From: Thermodesulforhabdaceae bacterium
Lineage (GTDB): Bacteria > Desulfobacterota > Syntrophobacteria > Syntrophobacterales > Thermodesulforhabdaceae
Direction of reading: 5' to 3'
NCBI GenBank assembly: GCA_037482015.1
Contig: JBBFKT010000006.1
Coordinates: forward strand, 1 to 64,000
Length of the DNA: 64,000 bases
Below are positions 56,582 to 62,614 of the stretch, one piece after another. How positions within the stretch are numbered: position 1 is the first letter of the stretch; every line of letters starts with the position of its first letter. The notes beneath the pieces were generated by a model that ran no database searches, was not told where the DNA came from, and saw only the letters and a program-made list of their open reading frames with translations. The translations under genes and the position numbers were made by a program.

Positions 56582-59104
56582 ATGTCCGAGGAATTTCCCT
56601 TTGTAAAGATTATCAGGGCTTCGGCAGGTTCCGGGAAGACCTACCAGCTTACGTTGAATTATCTACGGCATTTAAATCAAAAGAATGTAGATGTTTCCGT
56701 TATTCGCTCAATTCTGGCTATAACTTTTACGAACAAAGCCGCCGCTGAAATGAAGCATCGAATCATAAAAGCTCTTAAAGAAATCGCTATTGGAACAAAC
56801 AATAATTTGAGCAAAACCACAGGGATTTCGAAAGAGGATGCTGCACGATGGCTTGATATAATAATTCTAAATTATGATGATTTCCGAGTTCAAACGATCG
56901 ATAGTTTTGTTTTTTATCTTTTGCGAGCAATGGCGTGGGAAATGCGCATTAGACCTGATATAGAACCCGAATTTAATGTTAATCGAATACTGGATAAAGC
57001 CTTTGGGCGGCTACTTCTCAAGACAGGAGATGATGAATCTCTAAAAAACATGTTTGTAGAAGCTCTAAGGTGTTTTCTTGAATTAGAGCAGGCTTCGAGT
57101 TTCAATCCTGAAAGACATTTTAAGAAAAGAATCAAGAACATTTTCGACATTTTTTCAAAGAATGAAAAACTTAAGGGCACGCATTCCAATGCGTCTATAA
57201 CTAAAGACTGTCTGGATGATATAAAAAAGCAGGTCTCCAAACTGGCTAAAGAAATTTTGGATGATTGTGACAAGAAAAAAATAACACTCCATAAGCGTGC
57301 TAGGAGCGCTTTGGAAAGACTCACAAAAGATGATTGTGGACAAATCTATTCTGAATATTTTGAAAAAAGTAGCGTGTCCAAACTTATTACAAAATCTTCT
57401 CAAAAATCATTGAACCTAAACAATATTGAAGAACTTTATACTCTTCTAAAAGAGTCTCTTCAAGAATGCTGGCTAACTTACGGTATGGCTAGGGTAGCTC
57501 CTTATTCTAATCTTCTTTCCGAACTTACAAAAGAAATGGAATTTATATGCAAAAACGATGGCGTTATTCTTTATGAACAATGGAATAGAATGGTTCTTGA
57601 GCATCTTAACGAAAATGTGCCGTTAGTCTATTTTTCCTTGGGAGAAAAGCTCAAACATTTTCTTATTGATGAATTCCAGGACACGAGTCGAACTCAATGG
57701 AAGGTTCTTTTTCCGCTTATCGAAAATGCTCTTTCCGAAGGTGGAAGTTTTCTCTGCGTAGGTGATCCCAAGCAGTCCATTTACATGTGGCGTCAGGCAG
57801 ATCCAGGCCTTTTTGATAAAGTGACGGAAGTTTCTCGTAGTGCTCATCTAAAGGTAGAGCAACTCAGCATGAACTGGCGATCCGCCAAGGAAGTTGTCAA
57901 TTATAATAATCAGTTGTTTTCTTCCAATAGACTCGATGATAAGTTAAAGGAAATCATTAAAAAATATCTAGGCGACATGGCTTCAGATGATTTCGTAGAA
58001 GAATGCTTTGAGAATATCCGGGATAATTTTAAAAATGTAGTTCAAGAGCTTCCACCTGGTGCCAGATTGGGTGGCTCTGTAGAGAAAATATGCATAGAAG
58101 GTTCTAAAATCGAAGATAGAAACGCTAAGATTGAAGCTAATTTAATAGAAAAAATTCTGTATTTTGACAGAATAGGGGTGCCTTTTTCAGATATTACCGT
58201 GCTTGTTAGGACAAACGAGCAGAATAGACTGGTTTTTTCATGGCTTTGGGAAGCTGGTATTCCGGCAGTAACAGAACATTCGTTAAGAATTGAAAATGCT
58301 CCTACTGTCAAAGCTATTGTTAATTTTTTAAGGTTCGTGCGAGACTCAAAAGATGAGTGTTCGCTTGTAGGATTTCTTCAAAGTGAACTTGTTAAAGAAT
58401 TGAAAGGCATCGAAAGTTTTGATGAAAGCTGGATCTTGGAAGCAAGAGAGAAAAATCTTTCGCTTTTTGGATATATTCGGAAATTCCGGGATGATTTTTA
58501 CAAAGCCGTTCTAAAACCTTTTTTTGAAAGAGCTGGCTATGAAACAGCCTATGATATTACCAGATTGATAATACACCGCTTCGATGTAATGCGACGATTT
58601 CCCGAAGAAAGGTCTTTTGTGTTGAGATTTCTAGAGTTGATAAACAGCATGGAAGAAAGACTGGGAAGATTCGTTAGCCTTTCAGAGTTTGTATCATTAT
58701 GGGAGCAAGAAGGAGTGGAAGAGCGATTGGGCGTTCCGGAAAGGATTGGTGCTCAGCTTTTAGTTTCCGGCGAAGATGATTCTACAGAAGGCAACAATAA
58801 AGGTGCTGTGAGTATCATGACCATCCACGGAGCGAAAGGCTTGGAGTTTCCCGTTGTTATAGTGCCTTTTTTGGACTGGCGATCGAATAGGCAAGAAATA
58901 GTCGTGCTGGAGGATGGAAAACTTGTGAGGGTTTCTAAACCCTATCCACAGGAAGTCAAGAGTGCTATTTTGAAGGAGAAACGAAGAGAACTCACAGAGT
59001 CTTTTAACCTGCTCTATGTGGCTTTAACTCGAGCCAGAGATCATTTAGTGATTATGATCCCGAAAGATACATCCAGATTTCCAGTATCCAGTCTTTTAAT
59101 CTAA
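56582..59104 (+). CDS. UvrD/RecB-type (AddA-like) helicase lacking the nuclease domain
   Basis: An 840-residue superfamily 1A helicase. Motifs in order: Walker A RASAGSGKTYQL near residue 12, Ia ITFTNKAAAEMKHRI, II LIDEFQDTSRTQWKVLFP near residue 362, III CVGDPKQSIYMWRQADPGLF near residue 395, V SIMTIHGAKGLEFPVVIVPF near residue 745, and VI LLYVALTRARDHLV at the end. The layout is that of RecB/AddA subunits, which are ~1,100-1,250 residues long and end in a PD-(D/E)XK nuclease; this one stops 12 residues after motif VI. No AddB or RecC partner is adjacent. AAGGAG precedes the ATG. It follows the transglutaminase gene by 22 bases. Confidence 0.85.
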   Translation: MSEEFPFVKIIRASAGSGKTYQLTLNYLRHLNQKNVDVSVIRSILAITFTNKAAAEMKHRIIKALKEIAIGTNNNLSKTTGISKEDAARWLDIIILNYDDFRVQTIDSFVFYLLRAMAWEMRIRPDIEPEFNVNRILDKAFGRLLLKTGDDESLKNMFVEALRCFLELEQASSFNPERHFKKRIKNIFDIFSKNEKLKGTHSNASITKDCLDDIKKQVSKLAKEILDDCDKKKITLHKRARSALERLTKDDCGQIYSEYFEKSSVSKLITKSSQKSLNLNNIEELYTLLKESLQECWLTYGMARVAPYSNLLSELTKEMEFICKNDGVILYEQWNRMVLEHLNENVPLVYFSLGEKLKHFLIDEFQDTSRTQWKVLFPLIENALSEGGSFLCVGDPKQSIYMWRQADPGLFDKVTEVSRSAHLKVEQLSMNWRSAKEVVNYNNQLFSSNRLDDKLKEIIKKYLGDMASDDFVEECFENIRDNFKNVVQELPPGARLGGSVEKICIEGSKIEDRNAKIEANLIEKILYFDRIGVPFSDITVLVRTNEQNRLVFSWLWEAGIPAVTEHSLRIENAPTVKAIVNFLRFVRDSKDECSLVGFLQSELVKELKGIESFDESWILEAREKNLSLFGYIRKFRDDFYKAVLKPFFERAGYETAYDITRLIIHRFDVMRRFPEERSFVLRFLELINSMEERLGRFVSLSEFVSLWEQEGVEERLGVPERIGAQLLVSGEDDSTEGNNKGAVSIMTIHGAKGLEFPVVIVPFLDWRSNRQEIVVLEDGKLVRVSKPYPQEVKSAILKEKRRELTESFNLLYVALTRARDHLVIMIPKDTSRFPVSSLLI

Positions 59105-59109
59105 TCATA

Positions 59110-60549
59110 TCACTTTAAGCCGAGCCACTCATGAAGAGTAGGAGCCTTATACAGTGTGCTGAAGGTTATCTCATAGGGTAGGCGAGTTGTAAGGTCAAAG
59201 CCATTTTGGAATACAGAAACGGGTCTATCACAGGAGACAGTTATTACCACCACTTCAGGATGCTGACTTGTAAACCTTAAGGCAGAGTTAAACCGAGCGC
59301 CTCTGGATCTATCTTCATTTGTGACTGCCAGTCCATCAAGCAAGCATGAAAAGGCATAGAGATGAAGGTCTCTACCAATGTGAATTGCTCCGTCAAGCAT
59401 TGAAAGCCTGCAGGTAAGTTCTAGGTTTTTCCGAATTTTTAAAGAAAGTGGCTCGGCTAGATGCTGACCGGAAAGCTTTAGCGGTGTATGTCCAAGATCC
59501 ACAACTATGCATGCTCCATGTTGCTTTTCCGTGGCTTCCTGAACAATGTGCAGAACGATTGACAGCAGGTCGTCTCTAGTGTCGCTATCTAAATCTGATT
59601 CTACGAGAATTTCTTCAAACTCCACCAGGGATACTTTGCGATTTGTGGCGAGAAACTTTCCATCAGCAAAGCTACACACGATATTTTGGTTAATGTATAA
59701 GAATCCGTAAGTTTTGTGAAAATCCGCTATGATAGCCGGTGAAGAAATGTTTTCGGAAGCTATCCCCACAATGTGTTTTCCATCAGAGATTAGCGCCGTT
59801 TTAGAATTGTGAACAGCGGTTAGTAATTTACGGACGTGTTTTGTGTGGGTAAGAAGAGGTCTTTCGTAATGTGGAAATTTTATCAAAAAGTCTATCGTGC
59901 TCAGTTTAGATGGTTCAACAATAGCTAACATCCCTTCAGGTAGCATTCCTTCTTCGGGTGTTTTAGATATGTCTAGAATAGCCTCCAGGGTGCTCGAAAC
60001 CATGTAAGGCATATCCCAGCCTATGAGCAGGTTTAGTTCATCCATGATGTAATCTCGCACCGCGTAGGAAGCGTATTCTTTAAGCACGAGCCGGGAAGTA
60101 GCTGTATAAAAGGCGTCTTCTATGGCAAATTCATGGGAAAGCAAACATACAGCGTTTTCAAGCCATCGTTCTATAGGGCCTATTGAAGCTATGTCGGGAT
60201 GATGTTCAGCAAACCACATTTGATAGAATATATTCCCTGTTCTCCCTCCGTAGGAGATGATACCGCTCAGCCCTAGATCCTTTTCAGGAACGATTTCCCC
60301 AAAAAGTGTCATGCTATCCAATCTTAGAGGGCAACTAAGCCAGGCACTTGAATCAACGTAAAGTTCTTTTAGAGGCCGTTCGTGACCATCTAGAAGCCGA
60401 TAAGGATCGTAAAGAACCAGCGGATCATCATATTTTTCAGCATAAAGAAGAGCAACTCTAGTTGGTCTTCCGCAAAATCGCGAAAGCCCATCAGTAAGTC
60501 CTTCAAGAACGTTGAAAATTCTCAGGCGTTTGCTGAATTCAGAGACCAC
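59110..60549 (-). CDS. protein with C-terminal diadenylate-cyclase-like (DisA_N/DAC) domain
   Basis: 479 residues with a GTG start behind GAGGAAAG. The C-terminal ~130 residues carry the two DAC motifs: Asp386-Gly387-Ala388 in MLDGAIHIG, and Arg416-Gly-Ala-Arg-Phe-Asn-Ser-Ala in SRGARFNSALRF, followed by VVVITVSCDRPVSVF. The family makes c-di-AMP from two ATP. The second motif is usually RHR (GTRHRAA); here it is RFN, so activity needs testing. Residues 1-330 do not match a domain I can name; they may be a sensor domain of the DACN type. It is soluble. It is the last gene of a three-gene minus-strand operon with the zinc-finger and 143-residue proteins. Confidence 0.72.
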   Translation of the reverse strand: MVSEFSKRLRIFNVLEGLTDGLSRFCGRPTRVALLYAEKYDDPLVLYDPYRLLDGHERPLKELYVDSSAWLSCPLRLDSMTLFGEIVPEKDLGLSGIISYGGRTGNIFYQMWFAEHHPDIASIGPIERWLENAVCLLSHEFAIEDAFYTATSRLVLKEYASYAVRDYIMDELNLLIGWDMPYMVSSTLEAILDISKTPEEGMLPEGMLAIVEPSKLSTIDFLIKFPHYERPLLTHTKHVRKLLTAVHNSKTALISDGKHIVGIASENISSPAIIADFHKTYGFLYINQNIVCSFADGKFLATNRKVSLVEFEEILVESDLDSDTRDDLLSIVLHIVQEATEKQHGACIVVDLGHTPLKLSGQHLAEPLSLKIRKNLELTCRLSMLDGAIHIGRDLHLYAFSCLLDGLAVTNEDRSRGARFNSALRFTSQHPEVVVITVSCDRPVSVFQNGFDLTTRLPYEITFSTLYKAPTLHEWLGLK

Positions 60550-60580
60550 CTATCGACTTTCCTCACAGACAAAATTGCTT

Positions 60581-60859
60581 CTACTCCATAATGCCATCTT
60601 TGAGGTCTTCTGGAGACCACACGGGGATAGGACCCGATTGTCCCGTTTCCGGATCATAGCGATAACGATAGGAGCAAGGGTTTTTGTAAGTTGTGAACAT
60701 GTGTTTCCATCCTCGTTGGTAATAGGGGCAATCATCGTTAAAACAAACGTAGAAAAATTCAGATGTCCAGGTGGAAAAAAACGGCACTCGCCATTTTTTC
60801 ATTTTAGATCCACAATGAGGGCAAATGGATAGGTCTTTCTTCTCCTTACCTTGTTCCAT
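60581..60859 (-). CDS. small zinc-finger protein, Ogr/Delta-like
   Basis: 92 residues. A zinc-binding set is visible: CPHCGSKMKKW near residue 13 and CFNDDCPYYQRGW near residue 39, separated by FFSTWTSEFFY. The pattern resembles the Ogr/Delta zinc fingers of phage P2 activators, but the comparison is by motif only. The C-terminus has a YRYRYDPETGQ stretch. It starts 2 bases after the stop of the 143-residue protein and lies 31 bases upstream of the DAC-like gene, so it is part of that operon. DNA, RNA or protein binding are all possible. Confidence 0.75.
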   Translation of the reverse strand: MEQGKEKKDLSICPHCGSKMKKWRVPFFSTWTSEFFYVCFNDDCPYYQRGWKHMFTTYKNPCSYRYRYDPETGQSGPIPVWSPEDLKDGIME

Positions 60860-60861
60860 AT

Positions 60862-61293
60862 TTATTCACTCCCTTCATCTTCTTCTTTGAGTTCCTTTAT
60901 GCGCTGTTCAAATTCTTGTGGGTCGAAGTTTCGATTCCGCATGAAAAGATCCGCAAACTGTTTCATCGTTTCTTTCATGACTTCCTGATAGTTTGGAACG
61001 TATTGATCGAAAATTTCAGCAATTTTCTCATAGGAAAGCTGATTTAAATCTTCGCACAGGCGAAGATATTCTTCTCGTTTGTCTTCCGGAAGAGCTTTCA
61101 CCATATTTTGACCTAGAAGGTTTTCAAAAAGTCTATACATGTCGTTAAGAAGCTTTTTTAGGGATTCAGGTGAATGCTTTTCTCCCTTTTTCTCCACAAG
61201 GACTCTACAAAAATTCATAATGTAAGGGTTTTTCATAGAAAGAGGTGTGATTTGAGCAAGTTCTCGAGCTGACGGTGGTCTTTTAACAGTCAC
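60862..61293 (-). CDS. conserved-looking 143-residue protein of unknown function
   Basis: I do not recognise the family. It is a soluble, charged, mostly helical protein (LLNDMYRLFENLLGQNMVKA; EIFDQYVPNYQEVMKETMKQF) ending in a highly acidic tail KELKEEDEGSE. No cysteine pair, signal peptide or membrane helix. AAGGAGAC lies before the ATG. It is the first gene of the operon with the zinc-finger and DAC-like genes; codon use and spacing look genuine. Confidence 0.75.
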   Translation of the reverse strand: MTVKRPPSARELAQITPLSMKNPYIMNFCRVLVEKKGEKHSPESLKKLLNDMYRLFENLLGQNMVKALPEDKREEYLRLCEDLNQLSYEKIAEIFDQYVPNYQEVMKETMKQFADLFMRNRNFDPQEFEQRIKELKEEDEGSE

Positions 61294-61395
61294 TTTTGTC
61301 TCCTTTCTTTTTGCTTTTCGATTTGTAAAAAATTCATTACGGTTTATTTAACCACGTTTGTAAAACTGTTGCAATGGATAAGGAGAGAGCATGTT

Positions 61396-62034
61396 ATGAG
61401 TGGCGAGAATTACAAATCGATCATTCAATCTTATCTCGATAGGGCCTTTGCAAGAGGTATTGATCTGCTTAGAATTTCTATTCCAGCCCATTTAGAAGAC
61501 GATAAACTAGAATTCAAAGCCTTTGGGGCAAACTGTTTTATAAAAAAGGATGGGGTTTTTATTGACGGCTATAGTGAAGAAGGGCCTAAAGGAGTTCTCG
61601 TAAGCATTTACGCTCTTTATGCTCCTCAGAATGAAATAGCTACGGTAACTTCATGGCAGGCTTTTAGAGATTTGCCCAACAGTATGCCCTACTGGGGAGC
61701 TTTCAGATCCAACGCCGAGGAACCCCTTATTCCTTTCGTAGAGAAGGTTTTTTCTTTACGCCGAGAAATTTGTGATTGGCTTGGGGGATATTTTACCAGC
61801 GACACTCCTGGTGACTTTGCCTTTGTTGTTTTCCCTTTTCCGAAGATACCACTGCTTTACATTTTTTATCTCCCGGACGAAGAGTTTCCCGCTGAAGCCA
61901 AATGCCTTTTTGCTGCTCAAGATCCTTTTATGCCGGTTGATGCTCTTGCGGACGTTGCAGAACATACAAGCAGGCTTATGATAGAATTTGTTGAAAAAAA
62001 TTATGATAGCAAAAAGAAAATAGGAATGATCTAG
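61396..62034 (+). CDS. DUF3786-domain protein
   Basis: 212 residues from the ATG at 61396, chosen because AGGAGAG lies 8 bases upstream. The sequence IPLLYIFYLPDEEFPAEAKCLFA near residue 160 and SMPYWGAF near residue 96 fit the DUF3786 family of anaerobes, function unknown. It is soluble, with one conserved-looking cysteine pair (ANCFIK; AKCLFA). Divergent from the DAC-like operon and 97 bases before the preferred thioesterase start. Confidence 0.75.
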   Translation: MSGENYKSIIQSYLDRAFARGIDLLRISIPAHLEDDKLEFKAFGANCFIKKDGVFIDGYSEEGPKGVLVSIYALYAPQNEIATVTSWQAFRDLPNSMPYWGAFRSNAEEPLIPFVEKVFSLRREICDWLGGYFTSDTPGDFAFVVFPFPKIPLLYIFYLPDEEFPAEAKCLFAAQDPFMPVDALADVAEHTSRLMIEFVEKNYDSKKKIGMI

Positions 62035-62131
62035 TCAGTATCACTATAGCTGGAGTTCGGTGATAAAGGTGGATGGTAATAGATTGCAATTTATAAATAA
62101 TTTTTTATCAGGATCGTCTTTGGGGGAAACT

Positions 62132-62614
62132 ATGGGAAGTCATAAAAATTCAGTTGAATGTAAAGAAGAAGCAAGATTTACCGTAAGGATCCCAGTGACG
62201 ATTCACTTTGGGGATACAGATCCTTACGGAGTGGTCTATTTTGCTTCTTATTTCAGGTATTGTCATCATGGCATTGAAGCTTTTTTTAATCATTATGGTT
62301 TTCCACCGCATCAGTATTTTCGAAATGTTGAAAGAGGTTTTGGTCTTCCGGTGGTGGATGCTTCCTGCCGATTCCTTAAGCCTGTAAAGTATGGTGACGA
62401 ACTATGGCTTGATGTGTCTGTTAAAAGCTTCAAAAGCAAATCTGTTACTTTTGATTTTCGTTTTTACGAGAAAGCAAAAGAACTCCTTGTTGCCCAGGGT
62501 GAAGCTACCATCGTTGCAATAGATAGAACTTGGAGAGCCTGTGATCTGCCACCCGAAGTTCTTGAATGTCTTTCTAAGATTTGCGCGCCAAAACCAACTC
62601 CTACTACGGCATAG
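62132..62614 (+). CDS. acyl-CoA thioesterase, 4HBT/YbgC type
   Basis: 160 residues from the ATG at 62132, behind GGGGGAA; a GTG at 62060 in the same frame would add 24 residues without a clear ribosome binding site. The hot-dog fold signature HFGDTDPYGVVYFASYFRY near residue 25 contains the catalytic Asp of the 4-hydroxybenzoyl-CoA thioesterase family. SCRFLKPVKYGDELWLDV and AQGEATIVAIDR follow as usual. It releases free acids from acyl-CoA or acyl-ACP; the natural substrate is unknown. Confidence 0.9.
   Translation: MGSHKNSVECKEEARFTVRIPVTIHFGDTDPYGVVYFASYFRYCHHGIEAFFNHYGFPPHQYFRNVERGFGLPVVDASCRFLKPVKYGDELWLDVSVKSFKSKSVTFDFRFYEKAKELLVAQGEATIVAIDRTWRACDLPPEVLECLSKICAPKPTPTTA

Follow-up and report, generated by a model that had tools for sequence, protein, structure and literature searches.

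The DACND-DACNH-DAC protein

The window analysed here covers positions 1-64,000 of contig JBBFKT010000006.1 (C6) in the 2.7-Mb draft genome of a Thermodesulforhabdaceae bacterium (assembly GCA_037482015.1). It contains three tightly spaced minus-strand genes that had been picked out in a first-pass annotation made from the sequence alone; the coordinates of the open reading frames agree, giving proteins of 143, 92 and 479 residues separated by gaps of 2 and 31 bp. The last of these genes (59110..60549, minus strand, GTG start) encodes a protein related to the diadenylate cyclases (DACs) and is the main subject of this analysis.

Three Pfam domains were identified in the 479-residue protein, all encoded on the minus strand: DACND (PF21749) at residues 7-178 (60016..60531; 219.7 bits, cut-off 27, E = 2.5e-65), DACNH (PF21750) at residues 186-291 (59677..59994; 96.2 bits, cut-off 27, E = 1.3e-27) and DAC (DisA_N, PF02457) at residues 336-450 (59200..59544; 45.9 bits, cut-off 27). 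DACND and DACNH are each labelled 'probable sensor domain'. The roughly 330 N-terminal residues that the first-pass annotation left without a name thus consist mostly of named domains, and its proposal of a DAC-like protein with an N-terminal sensor-type region is borne out by the domain assignments, including a DAC profile match, and by the predicted fold described below. No match to CdaA_N or to the DisA-linker/HhH region was found in the protein. Since all three domains occur in order and above their cut-offs, with nothing essential different, the protein is a member of the DACND-DACNH-DAC architecture already named in Pfam and is therefore not new in kind. The names DACND and DACNH reportedly go back to Galperin (2023).

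An AlphaFold2 model of the protein has a mean predicted local distance difference test score (pLDDT) of 89. Residues 319-456 of the model superimpose on Listeria monocytogenes CdaA bound to AMP with a Z-score of 16.5 and a root-mean-square deviation of 2.5 Å over 130 residues; the Z-score is 16.0 against CdaA bound to ATP and 13.1-13.9 against DisA entries. A GAF/roadblock/longin-like arrangement was considered for residues 1-147 and is not claimed, the scores being near noise (Z 6.6-8.3) with no Foldseek match at E < 0.001.

Active-site motifs and the R-x-N branch

The motifs read in the first-pass annotation, DGA at residues 386-388 (59386..59394, minus strand) and SRGARFNSA at residues 415-423 with RHR changed to RFN, are both present. 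In place of the classical GxRHRxA motif the protein has RGARFNSALR (residues 416-425; 59275..59304, minus strand): the core reads GARFNSA, the first Arg is kept and the His and the second Arg are replaced, and the protein is not filed as a classical DAC. The SEE metal/phosphate motif is replaced by S-C-D (residues 439-441; 59227..59235, minus strand), the (V/I)SEE place reading V438-S439-C440-D441, with Ser kept and the metal-binding Glu replaced by Asp. An alignment of 32 rows was drawn from 35 complete distinct homologues. In it D386, G387, A388, R416, G417, A418, R419, N421, S422, A423, R425, S439 and D441 are each found in 32/32 rows, and position 420 is Phe in 15 and Tyr in 17.

According to a review (PMC7288161), the site residues of CdaA are Leu31, Asp71, Leu88, Gly101, Thr102, Arg103, His104, Ser122, Glu123 and Glu124, the last being the metal ligand. 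By alignment, Asp71, Gly101, Arg103 and Ser122 are kept in the 479-residue protein and Glu124 corresponds to Asp441. Leptospira CdaA is inactive when it carries D172A or R203A, and S222A leaves it roughly half of its activity (PMC12974146); by motif and spacing, these residues correspond to the invariant D386, R419 and S439. CdaA and DisA have the DAC fold, the DGA motif, the first Arg and, where SEE stands, the Ser and an acidic residue in common with the 479-residue protein, and differ from it in having RHR rather than RFN; CdaA_N and the DisA-linker/HhH region are missing here and the sensor domains are N-terminal.

Homologues of the cyclase-like protein are encoded in 28 of 59 related genomes (whole-protein search), and DACND was detected in 19 of 297 genomes of the phylum (profile search). 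A contig scan returned 485 stretches encoding relatives; the best 80 of these come from desulfo- and syntrophobacterial taxa or from unplaced Deltaproteobacteria or Proteobacteria. RGAR[FY]NS[AG] is present in all 96 distinct full-length homologues (61 with Phe and 35 with Tyr), a census made by family profile in which the motif was not required, although most of the 96 had come from the contig scan, where the motif was one of two patterns. Among the complete distinct copies found by whole-protein or DACND profile search, without use of the motif, 35/35 have both DGA and RGAR[FY]NSA. DGA itself occurs in 95 of the 96, the remaining protein, from Desulfonema magnum, having DGS. Left out of the census were a spurious row (L072), fragments (the split copy of G002, L032, L050 and L136) and identical tails. 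Two individual copies were noted: in D. magnum (L105:6001-7425) the DGS stands beside an intact RGARFNSA in the only DAC found, and Desulfobacter vibrioformis (L230, G343) has a second DACND-DACNH-DAC copy with DGAVQI in place of DGALHI.

The other DACs read in the phylum keep R-H without exception (47/47). Their motifs are mostly GTRH[RH]A[AG] in the CdaA type, GMRHRAAER in the DisA type, GSRH[MIV]A in short DACs, GARH[RA] in the DacZ_P type and GTRHQSA in the DACNV type; the third RHR position therefore varies and the His did not. All of the proteins without the His have DACNH, namely the DACND rows, four plasmid proteins with DACNG (from Dyadobacter, Gluconobacter, Citrobacter and Phycisphaera, the last with R-L-N) and two Priestia plasmid proteins. 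In a tree of 40 DAC domains, the 21 R-x-N rows, which make up the whole of the DACNH-containing branch (21/21), lie on one side of a branch with support 97/94, or 96/84 when ten motif columns are removed. One CdaA row (L227) was left out as it has no alignment anchor. The tree has long branches (L229 and L242) and a single DACNV row, and the R-x-N split is one branch in a tree for which the position of the root is not established.

Plasmid records gave two matches to the 479-residue protein and seven to the Dyadobacter DAC including the query itself (H3), which together with H9 was not read further. Phage records gave no match to the 479-residue protein, and a DNA search of Escherichia coli genomes with the Dyadobacter DAC gene gave none. 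The plasmid proteins connect the branch to DS2_3, the DAC of the anti-phage system DS-2 (NF053872; PMC13092281). Homologues above the DS2_3 model cut-off have DACNH, a DAC-like C-terminus and R[FY]N, as does the 479-residue protein; they differ in having DACNG rather than DACND and DGT rather than DGA, and in lying beside CD-NTase and phospholipase genes. The Citrobacter protein scores 803.8 bits (cut-off 630; motif RGSRYNSG) and the Gluconobacter protein 712.2 bits (motif RGARYNSA); the 479-residue protein, at 81.7 bits, stays below this cut-off. All three proteins of the Citrobacter trio exceed their DS-2 model cut-offs (509.6/400, 468.2/350 and 803.8/630), as do both proteins tested from Gluconobacter (454.3/350 and 712.2/630). 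Phospholipase and nucleotidyltransferase genes adjoin the DAC gene in both (on the other strand in Gluconobacter), and the DAC gene of Priestia megaterium lies near a SMODS gene; none is annotated around the DAC genes of Dyadobacter, Phycisphaera and P. aryabhattai. CD-NTase and phospholipase partners of the DS-2 kind were found neither in 101 DAC loci nor anywhere in the window by single-sequence phmmer, by which distant kinds could be missed. The RFN form is thus no local oddity but the fixed signature of a whole DAC branch, one in which relatives of a phage-defence DAC are found.

Neighbouring genes and distribution

Upstream of the DAC gene, a 143-residue DUF5663 protein (60862..61293, minus strand, GTG start; Pfam E = 1.2e-35) and a 92-residue Ogr/Delta-like zinc-finger protein (60581..60859, minus strand, ATG start; Pfam Ogr_Delta, E = 2.9e-11) are encoded. 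By eye, GGAG/GAGGA-like Shine-Dalgarno stretches precede both GTG starts; promoters and terminators showed no excess over shuffled sequences, and PADLOC gave no match. On the far side of the DAC gene lies a convergent gene for an 840-residue protein (56582-59104), the end of which is 5 bp from the DAC stop codon; from its sequence we take the product to be a UvrD/AddA-like helicase, which looks short for AddA. Upstream of the operon, at 61369-62614, a divergent DUF3786 gene is accompanied by a second gene that is presumably YbgC-thioesterase-like. Both genes have homologues that are found with the DUF5663 pair elsewhere in the same family.

It had been proposed that the three genes may form one c-di-AMP (cyclic di-AMP) signalling unit, with the two small proteins acting as sensors or relays of a signal. 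The tight spacing in the window and the same gene order in a second genome of the genus (G001) speak for such a unit. Among the 59 relatives, DUF5663 occurs in 35 and the zinc finger in 41, and the two are adjacent on the same strand in 35/35. The DAC gene adjoins this pair in only two of the 19 genomes holding all three, G000 and G001, both of the window's genus; nine genomes have the DAC without DUF5663 and 16 have DUF5663 without the DAC. Across 99 DAC loci (80 named and 19 unnamed, some from the same genome and some with short flanks), DUF5663 was seen only in G001, which is counted twice (L060 and L099), and a zinc-finger match lies about 5 kb from the DAC gene in L150, within a longer frame. 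Synteny of the three genes is therefore not conserved, their distributions differ, and a conserved three-gene unit, already contradicted outside the genus, is very improbable. The DUF5663 and zinc-finger genes are the two halves of an independent conserved module, which in the genomes examined stands upstream of the DAC gene in the window's genus alone; the zinc finger does not belong to any conserved DAC unit.

Homologous DUF5663-zinc-finger pairs include L084, L085 and L086. In families of the class other than this one, such pairs often have as neighbours two CxxCxxCC proteins, together with a CCG/4Fe-4S protein and an HdrA/FlpD-like flavoprotein. The same type of zinc finger forms the C-terminal part of a 350-residue SAM-methyltransferase-like protein in the same genome (L243:2076-3128; contig C6 at about 149.6-150.6 kb), and many relatives have a second zinc-finger match in frames of similar length.

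Within the window's family, the DAC gene stands beside phoH in G002, G003 and G004; in the latter two it lies just upstream of phoH and then a 7TM-HD (PgpH-like) gene, all on one strand. L062:5048-9314, from a related genome, has the DAC gene, phoH and a 7TM-HD (PgpH-like) gene in this order on the same strand. PgpH is a c-di-AMP phosphodiesterase in Listeria (PMC7288161). Being confined to one family, this neighbourhood may have arisen only once. With the crude gene calling used, in which antisense frames were retained and most of clusters 1-5 look like antisense shadows, the DAC loci showed no further partner that is widely conserved.

The genome containing the window encodes a single further DAC, which has the make-up CdaA_N-DAC-YbbR and the motif GTRHRAA. 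In three of 43 distinct DACND genomes, no DAC besides the DACND-type protein was found: G211 (a single contig, 99% complete), D. magnum 4be13 and the draft of Desulfococcaceae bacterium HSG8; two of the three are single complete chromosomes. The 43 comprise the 19 DACND genomes of the phylum and 30 named genomes; six are in both sets, as identified by contig and match coordinates, which gives this denominator. Among the 40 with another DAC, the DACND copy of G278 is itself cut by the end of a contig.

A probable sensor-regulated cyclase and its alternatives

We consider it reasonably likely that the 479-residue protein is a sensor-regulated DAC. DACND and DACNH would sense a signal, possibly a ligand, and control the C-terminal domain; DAC domains may pair head to head and bind two ATP molecules, and would make c-di-AMP or a close cyclic dinucleotide, so that the regulated output would supplement that of the CdaA-YbbR enzyme of the same genome. 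The protein is thus described as a sensor-regulated, probably active cyclase with c-di-AMP as its putative product. This is in line with the Pfam matches and the DAC fold, the invariant Asp386, Arg419, Ser439 and Asp441, the R[FY]N homologues of the DS-2 DAC, the place of the gene before phoH and a pgpH-like gene in G003 and G004 and beside phoH in G002, and the three genomes in which no other DAC was found.

Several observations weigh against this reading. At the active site, the phosphate contact His104 of CdaA is Phe or Tyr in every homologue read, Ala takes the place of Thr102 and Asn that of the third RHR residue, and the adenine-contacting Leu31 (the GALI leucine) aligns with Cys347, with Thr in the family consensus. 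Changing RHR to AAA in Mycobacterium tuberculosis DisA ended both ATP binding and activity (PMC3328451); as all three residues were changed together, the result does not separate them. By sequence comparison, alignment of the R[FY]N family with classical DACs by hhalign gave E = 0.015 and a probability of 3%, and no DAC match was found among Protein Data Bank sequences (phmmer to E = 1, profile to E = 0.01). In the Citrobacter and Phycisphaera proteins, the C-terminal domain has no Pfam DAC match at E = 0.001, and DGT is found in the Citrobacter and Gluconobacter proteins, both above the DS2_3 cut-off. Of the 43 DACND genomes, 40 have a further DAC, so that the protein is usually not the sole source of c-di-AMP; one of the three sole-DAC species, D. 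magnum, carries DGS rather than DGA; and the pgpH neighbourhood is restricted to one lineage. The c-di-AMP riboswitch (RF00379) was found in none of the three sole-DAC genomes and in five of 30 DACND genomes. A PgpH-like gene is kept in all three; as a mark of c-di-AMP use its retention was discarded as weak evidence, because 15 of 30 genomes with no DAC keep pgpH as well, compared with 178 of 267 that have one. Ten of the genomes with no DAC were recognised by gaps in the genome numbering.

The replacement of the last two RHR positions in every homologue read, His by Phe or Tyr and Arg by Asn, together with the presence of another DAC in most genomes, could also mean that the cyclase has been retired and that its fold now serves as a sensor or scaffold, binding ATP or c-di-AMP without cyclization. 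The DAC fold may have been reused for nucleotide sensing, yet a retired cyclase seems unlikely to us: typical decayed sites are unlike one in which Asp386, Arg419, Ser439 and Asp441 are kept in 32/32 rows, and in three genomes the protein is the only DAC. The DS-2 comparison points the same way. In the DS-2 DAC, changing either of two residues predicted to be catalytic is reported to abolish phage defence (PMC13092281), and R[FY]N homologues belong to this system; the comparison rests on those homologues rather than on the protein tested in that work. A wider family with the RFN form, which had been thought decisive if known to be inactive, does exist; in the literature covered, seen in part, it is not reported as inactive, and it holds the homologues of a DAC whose system needs its predicted catalytic residues. 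The searches (DACND/DACNH/DACNV, DUF5663, and DAC with defence or RHR) returned no paper that treats the R[FY]N change, as judged from titles, the starts of abstracts and passages. It may be described in Galperin (2023).

An active enzyme with another product is somewhat less probable again. The product of R[FY]N DACs would then be some other nucleotide, cyclic or linear, for example one with GTP, serving stress sensors here and CBASS-linked DACs in defence. The changed residues lie at phosphate contacts and the adenine-touching leucine is lost; the branch stands apart from the RHx DACs with or without the motif columns, and the DS-2 layout places such a DAC beside a CD-NTase. On the other hand, the site is otherwise DAC-like and the parts of the literature covered give no product. 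At about the same low level, and a shade below it, we place a model-based idea in which DACNH is a worn-down DAC fold and DACNH-DAC a built-in DAC pair within one chain, the R[FY]N half being a rebuilt site that would work against its partner or make something different from c-di-AMP, and would serve stress sensing in Desulfobacterota and phage defence on plasmids. In a model of residues 1-305, residues 160-294 match the DisA DAC domain (7-144) at the edge of noise (Z 8.0 for 9y4s, 7.5 for 4yxm and 7.1 for 3c1y), and the DisA stretch concerned is approximately the one matched by the true DAC domain. Counting against the idea, the internal DACNH/DAC repeat scored 12.3 in hhalign, a value exceeded by ten or more of 100 column-shuffled controls (17.2-22.1), and predicted DACNH has no helix where the RHR-bearing helix sits in DAC.

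The sensor-regulated cyclase remains the reading that we prefer, and two results are of use beyond it: the RFN form marks a DAC branch to which relatives of a DAC from phage defence also belong, and the grouping of the three genes is local. RHR is regarded as belonging to the DAC active site, and here a whole branch, chromosomal in Desulfobacterota and carried on plasmids elsewhere, partly beside CD-NTase genes, has R-[F/Y]-N instead. The number of genomes credited with the signal, and the product of the second DS-2 cyclase, depend on whether this branch makes c-di-AMP. Sole-DAC species such as D. magnum make the c-di-AMP output directly testable.

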